Shown here one piece after another: positions 16,007 through 20,286 of a DNA stretch of 39,102 nt. The notes under the pieces were generated by a model that searched no databases, was not told the origin of the DNA, and saw nothing but the letters and a program-made list of their open reading frames with translations. Made by a program: the position numbers and the translations under genes. The DNA is from Terriglobia bacterium (GTDB lineage Bacteria > Acidobacteriota > Terriglobia > Acidiferrales > UBA7541): positions 1 to 39,102 of the forward strand of contig JAIQGC010000043.1 of NCBI GenBank assembly GCA_020072805.1, given 5' to 3'. Numbering within the stretch: the stretch's first letter is position 1; every line of letters begins with the position of its first letter.

Positions 16007-16035
16007 TTGACAGAGCTTTCTATCTCCCGTATTCT
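16007..16035 (+). promoter_or_regulatory. Near-consensus promoter of the sulfur assimilation operon
   Basis: TTGACA (16007-16012), exactly 17 bp, then TATTCT (16030-16035). The predicted transcription start (about 16042-16045) falls within a few bases of the ATG of the cysteine-rich leader ORF at 16045, so the mRNA would have almost no 5' leader. Confidence 0.75.
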
Positions 16036-16044
16036 CGCCACCTC

Positions 16045-16140
16045 ATGAAAGTAGCCTGCCAGAGGATGTGTTGTCTGTCTGCATGCAACGCTGCGTGTTG
16101 TATGCCCTCCATCTCTGGCCGGGTGAAGCTCCGAACTTAG
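16045..16140 (+). CDS. Cysteine-rich leader peptide (31 residues) of an attenuator
   Basis: This short ORF runs ATG 16045-16047 to TAG 16138-16140 and encodes 31 residues. Six are cysteine (positions 5, 9, 10, 14, 18 and 19), including two Cys-Cys pairs. Cysteine is normally among the rarest residues, and the run stops before the C-terminal third. The ORF starts 9 nt after a -10 box and has no room for a ribosome-binding site, so it would be read from a leaderless or nearly leaderless mRNA. It sits directly before an intrinsic terminator and the sulfite/nitrite reductase gene. The likely role is sensing cysteinyl-tRNA: ribosomes stall when cysteine is short and alter RNA folding downstream. 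Comparable leaderless polycysteine upstream ORFs are known from mycobacteria. Here the assignment is inference from sequence. Confidence 0.8.
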   Translation: MKVACQRMCCLSACNAACCMPSISGRVKLRT

Positions 16141-16183
16141 CATTTCTTTATTCAATAAGTTCCGAAGCCCGCGTGCCAGAGCA
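16058..16183 (+). promoter_or_regulatory. Attenuator RNA with mutually exclusive pairings
   Basis: Segment 1 (GCCAGAGGATG, 16058-16068, within the Cys codons) can pair with segment 2 (CATCTCTGGC, 16110-16119). Segment 2 (CTCTGGC plus CGGG, 16113-16123) can instead pair with segment 3 (CCCG at 16168-16171 and GCCAGAG at 16175-16181, with a 3-nt bulge). Segment 3 is also the 5' arm and loop of the terminator. A ribosome stalled on Cys codons would mask segment 1 and free segment 2 to disrupt the terminator. A ribosome reaching the stop codon would mask segment 2 and let the terminator form. Confidence 0.7.
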
Positions 16184-16210
16184 TCTGGTAACGCGGGCTT
16201 TTTTGTTTTT
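16165..16210 (+). terminator. Attenuator terminator before the sulfite reductase gene
   Basis: AAGCCCGCGT (16165-16174) pairs perfectly with ACGCGGGCTT (16191-16200). An inner CCAGA/TCTGG stem lies in the loop, and a T-rich tail TTTTTTGTTTTT follows. It lies 24 nt before the reductase ATG, so unless relieved it would block the operon. Confidence 0.85.
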
Positions 16211-16233
16211 ACAGACGAGGGGGACCAGGATTC

Positions 16234-17937: not shown

Positions 17938-18551
17938 ATGAGCCTTTTTCCCCTCTTCGTGAAGCTGCACGGCCGGCTGGTCGTGGTCATTGGCGGCGGA
18001 AACATCGCCCAGGCAAAAATTCCCGGCCTTCTCGCTGCCGGTGCCCGCGTGCGCGTCATCGCCCCCGATGTGCTGGAAGAAATTTCCTCCGCGGCGCTTC
18101 AAGGCTCGCTCGAGTGGCGGCCCAAGCTCTTTGCTGTGGACGATCTCGATGGCGCTCATCTCGTCATCGCCGCCACATCCTCTTCGGAAGTCAACAAATC
18201 CGTTTTCCGCGCATCCGAAAGTCGCGGCCTCTGGTGCAACGCCGTGGACGATCCCCAACACTGCCATTTCTATTACGGTGCGGTCGTGCAGCGCGGTGAT
18301 CTGCAAATCGCCATCTCCACCAACGGCAAGAGTCCTGCGCTGGCCCAGCGTCTGCGCCAGGAACTCGAATCGCAGTTCGGCCCGGACTATGCTCCCTGGC
18401 TTGAATGGCTGGGCGTGACCCGCGACCTTTTGCGCGCGGAGAATGGCGATGCGCATTCCGGCAAAGCGCTTCTTCACCACCTGGCCAGCCGCCCGCAATT
18501 CGAAAATTTTCTTCGCGGCACCCGCCGTGCATCGGAACAAGGAGCCGCCTG

Positions 18552-18552
<1 letters not shown>
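17938..18552 (+). CDS. Precorrin-2 dehydrogenase (siroheme synthase N-terminal domain type)
   Basis: This 204-residue protein corresponds to the Met8/SirC or CysG N-terminal domain, which oxidises precorrin-2 to sirohydrochlorin with NAD+ and may chelate iron. The Rossmann motif VVVIGGGNIAQAKI (about 15-28) is followed by the LVIAATSSSEVNKSV and WCNAVDDPQHCHFYYGAVVQRGDLQIAISTNGKSPALAQRLR segments that are diagnostic of the family. It lies 3 nt after the reductase and its stop overlaps the next ATG (TGATG). It supplies sirohaem for the reductase. A dedicated CbiX-like chelatase is not in the window. Confidence 0.93.

Positions 18553-20286
<1,734 letters not shown>

Follow-up and report, generated by a model that had tools for sequence, protein, structure and literature searches.

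A putative cysteine-sensing transcription attenuator with a leaderless or near-leaderless leader peptide upstream of a NirA-type reductase in Acidobacteriota

A NirA-type reductase gene in the genome of a Terriglobia bacterium (assembly GCA_020072805.1, contig JAIQGC010000043.1) is preceded by a promoter, a short open reading frame (ORF) rich in cysteine (Cys) codons, and a hairpin followed by a T tract. This arrangement raises the question of whether, and by what means, expression of the gene follows the supply of charged tRNA-Cys. The stretch of DNA that was analyzed, referred to below as the window, comprises 39,102 nucleotides. As judged from its sequence and from that of related loci, the region upstream of the reductase is very probably a ribosome-mediated transcription attenuator of the trp type, which would sense charged tRNA-Cys on a leaderless or near-leaderless mRNA.

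Leader region and operon in the window

A preliminary description of the locus had reported the promoter, its distance from the ATG, and an ORF of 31 codons with six Cys codons, and direct reading of the window confirms all three (Table 1). The -35 hexamer TTGACA (16007-16012) and the -10 hexamer TATTCT (16030-16035) are separated by a 17-nt spacer, and 9 nt lie between the -10 hexamer and the ATG at 16045. The promoter is also recovered by a promoter scan, which finds 2 promoter-like sites in 1.2 kb compared with 0.3 in shuffled sequences. The encoded peptide, MKVACQRMCCLSACNAACCMPSISGRVKLRT, carries Cys at codons 5, 9, 10, 14, 18, and 19, including two Cys-Cys pairs. The three mutually competing segments (GCCAGAG, CTCTGGC, and GCCAGAG again within the 5′ arm of the terminator) are likewise found where they had been described. 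Moreover, a second antiterminator helix, formed by 16133-16138 and 16157-16162, was identified that had been missing from the preliminary description.

The terminator stem consists of GCCCGCGT (16167-16174) and ACGCGGGC (16191-16198), with the inner stem CCAGA/TCTGG, and the T tract ends 23 nt before the reductase ATG (16234). Both the hairpin and the T tract are thus present as described, but the stem contains a bulge, so that the word "perfect", which had been applied to it, is slightly too strong. A simple terminator scan misses the structure, probably because of this bulge and of the loop rule of the scan; the sole terminator-like site that it lists lies elsewhere, on the minus strand. The leader RNA folds with -71.3 kcal/mol, compared with -57.2 ± 4.5 kcal/mol for shuffled sequences (z -3.14). 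Across the whole window, no match to an Rfam family passes the cut-off of that family, and the best weak match between 15900 and 16300 is Trp_leader (18.1 bits, with a cut-off of 41); identity with a riboswitch or a known Rfam leader was rejected because of this lack of Rfam matches.

Table 1. Features of the leader region and of the downstream genes in the window
Feature	Position	Strand	Basis or role
Sigma-70-type promoter, TTGACA-17-TATTCT	16007..16035	+	Sequence; relatives have a similar promoter, similarly spaced from the short ORF
Leader peptide ORF, leaderless or near-leaderless	16045..16140 (TAG)	+	Sequence; Cys-rich ORF conserved in relatives
Segment 1, GCCAGAG	16058..16064	+	Partner of segment 2 if the ribosome is absent there
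Segment 2, distal part, CTCTGGC	16113..16119	+	Alternative partners: segment 1 or segment 3
Segment 2, proximal part, GAACTT	16133..16138	+	Overlaps the stop codon; second antiterminator helix
Segment 3, proximal part, AAGTTC	16157..16162	+	Pairs with 16133-16138
Intrinsic terminator hairpin	16167..16198	+	5′ arm includes the distal part of segment 3, GCCAGAG, 16175-16181
Terminator T tract, TTTTTTGTTTTT	16199..16210	+	Sequence
NirA-type siroheme/4Fe-4S nitrite/sulfite reductase, 566 aa	16234..17934	+	Controlled gene; probable sulfite reductase
Siroheme synthase N-terminal domain	17938..18552	+	Probably same operon
Uroporphyrinogen-III C-methyltransferase (CysG C-terminal/CobA)	18552..19376	+	Probably same operon; start inferred, as the family match begins there within a longer ORF (18405-19376)

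In the proposed mechanism, in which the transcript start, ORF translation, termination, and cysteine response are all predictions, RNA polymerase would initiate at most a few nucleotides from the ATG at 16045, and a ribosome would load on the 5′-terminal start codon without a Shine-Dalgarno site. With ample Cys-tRNA, the ribosome would reach the stop codon, segment 2 would be either covered or paired with segment 1, and the terminator (16167-16198) would form, ending transcription before the reductase. With scarce Cys-tRNA, the ribosome would stall at one of the Cys codons (5 to 19) and cover segment 1. Segment 2 (16113-16138) would then pair with segment 3 (16157-16181) while the terminator 3′ arm has yet to be transcribed, and the polymerase would continue into the sulfite reductase and siroheme genes.

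Conservation of the leader and its response to ribosome position

Reductase protein searches, one of them taking the best 80 of 575 relatives, yielded 102 usable loci, two of which are the window itself; they represent 92 distinct upstream regions. The nearest named relatives, within those best 80 of 575, are acidobacterial MAGs with 75% protein identity, one of which is labelled Candidatus Acidoferrales. A short Cys ORF and a terminator, mostly together with a promoter, are present in 67 of the 92 regions. The preliminary description had named as a refutation a terminator kept in relatives while the ORF or its Cys codons are lost; what is found in these 67 regions is instead joint conservation of ORF, segments, and terminator, on which grounds a chance ORF was rejected. 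The 25 regions without an assigned leader comprise 17 from Rokuibacteriota, Methylomirabilota, or Actinomycetota, two that are too short, and six from Acidobacteriota. No such leader lies upstream of the reductase in L064, L083, L088, and L096 (all Acidobacteriota); in L098, Ns extend over the ORF and the terminator is retained.

Two further arrangements were observed at reductase loci. In the Rokuibacteriota/Methylomirabilota loci L072, L076, L087, L089, L100, L107, and L108, the Cys leader is absent upstream of the reductase, which is preceded by a protein of 60-70 aa with two CxxC pairs. In L051, a Thermoanaerobaculia record and the last of the six acidobacterial regions, MICNPRPMCCLCDATSVAASGEFVHM and an ORF ending in NCPCCRDSRWTSSGNGSG lie some 340 bases ahead of the reductase, and each of these two Cys ORFs is followed by a hairpin with T-rich sequence; the L051 leaders are possible tandem attenuators.

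The alignment comprises 65 leaders, cut at the T tract, with L057 and L063 (a 16-codon ORF with a weak terminator) excluded and with start codons that are uncertain for L013, L014, L015, L016, and L109. Typical leader peptides in relatives are MSICCQTICCSCACNAACRKAPISGQRSFRT and MSDSQNLRAVCCCTCCCCACVCTGAGRLLT. Across the 65 leaders, TGY occurs in frame at 413 of 1932 codons and in the other two frames at 169 and 79, each out of 1867. Cys makes up 22% of the leader codons (263 TGT, 150 TGC), with a mean of 6.35 per ORF; part of this excess is due to selection, because the ORFs were initially picked for at least three Cys, but the mean lies far above that floor. The Cys codons end approx. nine residues before the end of the ORF: the last eight residues hold only 6 of the 413 Cys, and the fourteenth residue from the end is Cys in 88% of the leaders.

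All 65 aligned leaders have a hairpin and T tract in a corresponding position. Of the compensatory changes foreseen in the preliminary description, those in the terminator are clear, as the stem contains 34 double-change cells compared with 12.2 ± 2.8 in shuffles (reached in 0 of 500); those in the antiterminator are weak, and those in the 1:2 helix are absent, both of these helices being nearly invariant. In particular, over the 65 leaders 88.5% of cells in the distal antiterminator helix (TCTGGC/GCCAGA) are paired, and a single pair covaries. Among the 13 closest leaders, no pair covaries in the antiterminator (95.2% of cells paired) or in the nearly invariant 1:2 helix (97.4% of cells paired). 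With so little covariation, it is more conservation than compensation that supports the antiterminator and 1:2 helices.

Pairing between segments 2 and 3 was also assessed through duplex energies. In the 65 leaders, duplexes between a leader's own segments average -27.2 kcal/mol, compared with -24.4 kcal/mol for swapped partners (0 of 10000 permutations, in a test that ignores the relatedness of the leaders), and dinucleotide shuffles of segment 2 give a median z of -1.64, with z < -2 in 27 of 65 leaders. When 56 of the 65 leaders were divided into three clade groups, whole-segment duplexes were stronger with the group's own partners than with those of the other clades in group 1 (-26.2 vs. 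-19.2 and -21.9) and group 3 (-29.0 vs. -22.8 and -22.3), and slightly so in group 2 (-27.3 vs. -26.3 and -26.5). With the proximal part alone, group 2 shows no preference for its own partners. Cross-clade covariation of the proximal antiterminator helix is not demonstrable column by column because the register shifts between clades.

The effect of ribosome position was modeled by equilibrium folding of the full-length leaders with a 27-nt ribosome block, based on a footprint estimate of 26 nt given in the available extract of PMC13236596. The terminator probability averages 0.97 with no ribosome, 0.98 with a ribosome at the stop codon, and 0.96 with a stalled one; there is no switch in most leaders, and a drop of more than 0.1 at the best Cys codon is seen in 6 of 65. 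Since full-length equilibrium favors the terminator, the proposed switch would depend on co-transcriptional order. Attenuation would be decided during RNA synthesis, and the exposed RNA was therefore cut at the 5′ arm of the terminator, ending five bases beyond it. In this second model, a stalled ribosome blocks all upstream RNA as well as its own footprint, whereas a ribosome at the stop codon blocks its own footprint only.

In the cut RNA, the mean antiterminator probability is 0.50 when the ribosome is absent; a ribosome at the stop codon gives 0.39, and one stalled at Cys gives 0.77 (64 leaders, one of the 65 being without the needed columns). A shift greater than 0.2 occurs in the predicted direction in 40 of the 64 leaders and in the opposite direction in two. 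The corresponding values for the window leader are 0.56, 0.24, and 0.89. When the stall is moved along the window ORF, the probability stays at 0.88-0.89 for codons 1-19, falls to 0.44 at codon 20, and does not exceed 0.05 for any later codon; codon 19 is the last Cys codon. The leaders found before other genes (see below) give 0.46 at the stop codon and 0.73 when stalled, with shifts greater than 0.2 upward in 23 and downward in two of 45 leaders (45 of 46, L149 omitted; the model frame is wrong in L149, L162, and L173). In the truncated-RNA model, a stall at the sensing codons is thus predicted to free segment 2, whereas arrival at the stop codon is not.

With regard to the start of the message, a promoter rule was applied that calls for a -35 element with at least five positions of TTGACA, a spacer of 16-18, and 5-11 bases between the end of TAnnnT and the start codon. 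It is satisfied by 53 of 64 reductase leaders, for which promoter fit had played a part in choosing the start codon (shuffles 0.16), and by 28 of 60 other hits of the covariance model described below, whose starts were set regardless of promoter (shuffles 0.11). None of 67 reductase start regions, with starts extrapolated from the alignment, satisfies a like rule (3-13 bases). Shine-Dalgarno-like sequences precede 13 of 124 leader ORFs and 7 of 67 reductase starts, the latter being approximate; as they are equally rare at reductase starts, the feature does not discriminate. In the part of PMC8079986 that was available, the distance from the -10 element to the start site in Streptomyces lividans averages 6.3, with a range of 4-9. 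If this spacing applies, the window leader would have a 5′ UTR of approx. 0-5 bases. The term leaderless, used in the preliminary description, is likely to be right; strictly, with a 5′ UTR of approx. 0-5 nt, near-leaderless is the safer word.

Genes preceded by related leaders

At E 0.01, a covariance model built solely from the reductase leaders matches 167 of 399 genomes in the class, many of which contain several matches; at E 0.001, it matches 34 of 396 genomes across the phylum. Of these 34, 16 belong to the class, with the window's own among them, and 18, which score lower, lie outside it; one of the 18 was read (G517, locus L221, cut at the contig end). Outside the own genome, 70 matches were read: 30 as returned and 40 chosen for genome spread with their genes unseen. 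At least three Cys occur in 57 of 60 distinct matches with a start codon at the model start. Because the model itself contains Cys runs, the Cys content of the matches is not independent evidence; the downstream genes are. Representatives of these genes were named by Pfam and NCBIfam, tRNA genes by ARAGORN, and cluster members by BLAST; L145 was named by its position in the reductase protein search, and L160 and L187 were named by reading translations.

NIR/SIR reductases follow 24 of the 70 matches, several of which are loci already in the reductase set. The remaining 46 stand before CysD (15), rhodanese-domain sulfurtransferases (14, for which the NCBIfam model that comes nearest, though below cut-off, is 3-mercaptopyruvate sulfurtransferase), a group of rhodanese, family 2A encapsulin, and cysteine desulfurase (four: L178, L180, L181, and L183, with all three genes annotated only in L180 and named by BLAST cluster or by eye in the others), outer-membrane receptors (four), siroheme synthase (three), and, once each, CysK, CysH, TauE, DsrC/TusE, aspartate-semialdehyde dehydrogenase, and tRNA-Cys. 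The gene cysS was identified at none of the 70 loci read, and the gene downstream in the window encodes the NirA-type reductase. The leaders before other sulfur genes, together with the joint conservation at reductase loci, support the reading as ribosome-mediated Cys attenuation put forward in the preliminary description.

It is fairly probable that these leaders define a cysteine regulon of Acidobacteriota, in which one leaderless attenuator, sensing Cys-tRNA charging through a stall of the first ribosome, precedes genes for many steps of sulfur assimilation, for sulfur storage, and sometimes for tRNA-Cys, with His and Thr leaders built on the same chassis. If so, a single leader architecture would have been reused across the sulfur genes of one class of soil bacteria. 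The position of the leader before family 2A encapsulin suggests that the encapsulin compartment is made on cysteine shortage, which would link this protein to cysteine starvation. The family is large and would offer a testable case of one leader that unites a Cys sensor with a leaderless-type start and an intrinsic terminator.

At four loci (L138, L143, L153, and L185), the Cys leader stands before outer-membrane beta-barrel proteins with a carboxypeptidase-regulatory domain, which possibly import a sulfur compound. In L172 (G047), the leader MSNRRQMRTTIMGTCHKCIRPPSGAGTLPS, with only two Cys, precedes aspartate-semialdehyde dehydrogenase, and siroheme-synthase-like ORFs lie further down. In the window's own genome, no further Cys leader is found by the covariance model. 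This genome, which is 99.8% complete, contains no protein with a PAPS_reduct domain (CysD or CysH), a domain present in 14 of 14 control genomes, so that some route besides the standard CysD/CysH one would have to supply its sulfite.

The occurrence of the leader at tRNA-Cys genes was examined in 30 loci fetched by tRNA-Cys similarity within the genus, 24 of which were scanned, the six weaker matches being left out. The leader lies upstream on the same strand in 13 of the 24, tRNA-Cys without a leader was found in eight, and ARAGORN detected no tRNA in three. In two genomes, the leader directly precedes tRNA-Cys(GCA) (L224 in G027 and L227 in G025), and in eleven loci it lies further upstream (L225, L229-L237, and L247). 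Six loci were measured; an ORF for a sulfurtransferase of 294-296 aa lies between, the distance from leader to tRNA is 995-1261 bases, and a separate tRNA promoter in this gap is possible. The own genome gave no match to the queried tRNA-Cys gene. Were the regulon real, the cell would tune its cysteine supply and its tRNA-Cys through one signal, and it may be asked why expression of a tRNA gene should depend on how far that tRNA is charged.

The regulon also bears on the substrate of the enzyme. The attenuation might be real and the controlled enzyme an assimilatory nitrite reductase, as the names of the best NCBIfam models (ferredoxin-nitrite reductase and NirA family, both below cut-off) and of the best PDB sequence match (NirA, 1zj8, called a probable nitrite reductase in the PDB) would have it; this is unlikely, however, given a leader with Cys codons whose family also stands before CysD, CysH, CysK, and siroheme synthase. 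NirA 1zj8 is reportedly the Mycobacterium tuberculosis enzyme shown to be a sulfite reductase, which counts against nitrite as well. From the regulon and the NirA match, the substrate is probably sulfite, and the leader would help to annotate NirA-type enzymes as sulfite reductases.

According to the portion of PMC9031893 that was available, mycobacterial leaderless polycysteine ORFs control downstream translation, and by analogy a stalled ribosome might here free a downstream ribosome-binding site, with the hairpin being no working terminator. Such translational attenuation is very improbable, because the hairpin and T tract recur throughout the 65 leaders with a covarying stem, end 23 nt before the reductase ATG in the window, and, in the two genomes with the leader directly before tRNA-Cys, precede a gene that has no ribosome-binding site to hide. 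Least credible of all is a conserved Cys-rich peptide that acts in trans, for instance as a small metal- or redox-binding protein, the hairpin being an ordinary terminator or a riboswitch platform. Apart from the Cys run and the codons of segment 2, the peptide varies in length and sequence; nearly all Cys lie outside the last eight residues; the last two bases of codon 5 (GC, in segment 1) are fixed in the 13 closest leaders while the amino acid there is C, R, or G; and nothing in the window passes an Rfam cut-off.

Relation to known leaders and the His and Thr leaders

Ribosome-mediated transcription attenuation is known from the E. coli trp, his, and thr attenuators, which use segment pairings 1:2, 2:3, and 3:4 and sensing codons in a leader peptide. 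They resemble the window leader in the segment logic proposed for it and differ in having a Shine-Dalgarno start and in sensing an amino acid other than Cys. Leaderless polycysteine ORFs were reportedly described in mycobacteria by Canestrari et al. in 2020.

Cys leader peptides in Actinobacteria, with no conserved terminator in the excerpted text, were described by Seliverstov (2005, PMC1262725), and Cys-rich upstream small ORFs in mycobacteria, with attenuation proposed, by Shell (2015, PMC4633059), each as far as the available excerpt goes. One actinobacterial polycysteine ORF precedes cysA2, according to extracts of these sources (PMC1262725/PMC4633059), and an extract of the review PMC9031893 states that the polycysteine system of Canestrari et al. 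acts on translation. The mycobacterial and actinobacterial ORFs are like the window leader in being short and upstream of cysteine genes, with a run of Cys codons, and the title of Canestrari et al. names them as leaderless, as is probable for the window leader; as excerpted, they differ in lacking a terminator and in controlling translation, whereas the acidobacterial leader has an intrinsic terminator and an antiterminator. The gene cysA2 is presumably a sulfurtransferase gene.

A further parallel is uORFC-8-2, a Cys upstream ORF with an intrinsic terminator before cysS in Rhodobacterales, for which attenuation was proposed (Brewer 2021, PMC8632094). By its description in the available extract, it shares with the window leader the Cys ORF, the intrinsic terminator, and the proposed ribosome-mediated attenuation; it differs in having two tandem Cys codons, in standing only before cysS, and in belonging to another phylum, and a leaderless start is not mentioned in that extract. 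In S. lividans, leaderless leader peptides with Rho-independent terminators (such as trpL1, leuL2, and ilvL) are described in the excerpted text of PMC8079986. They are like the window leader, which is probably leaderless, in this combination and unlike it in phylum, and Cys dependence is claimed for none of the eight listed in that excerpt.

For Acidobacteria, attenuators have been predicted, with no function given in the extract available (PMC2965389), and leader-gene distance statistics have been presented (PMC4833913, likewise in extract). Within the top-ranked openly licensed literature, no report of a leaderless Cys ORF combined with a terminator, and none of a Cys leader in Acidobacteriota, was found. 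The known pieces are the mycobacterial leaderless polycysteine ORFs and the Rhodobacterales Cys leader with terminator before cysS; new are their combination, the lineage, and the probable regulon, the last of which goes beyond the preliminary description.

The model built from reductase leaders also finds leaders for other amino acids in the own genome, each with a promoter-like sequence near the ATG and a terminator. The Thr-rich leader MISTSAKRITTATTTSKTSTTWMCTIFAFGAGRNS (L113, G000:C124:4281-4378, minus strand) precedes aspartokinase, and similar Thr leaders occur in relatives (L191, L192, L193, L195, L202, L209, L210, and L213). The His leader MALQTQRQHHHHHGHNPRLLRCA (L114, G000:C93:29314-29359, minus strand), which contains HHHHHGH, precedes HisI and has counterparts in relatives (L196, L197, L201, L203, L204, and L205). 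These leaders on the same chassis suggest that leaderless attenuation is a general form of amino-acid control in Acidobacteriota. In the cut-RNA model, the own Thr leader shows no switch (0.88 at the stop codon, 0.84 stalled), and the own His leader does switch, from 0.05 at the stop codon to 0.59 when stalled.
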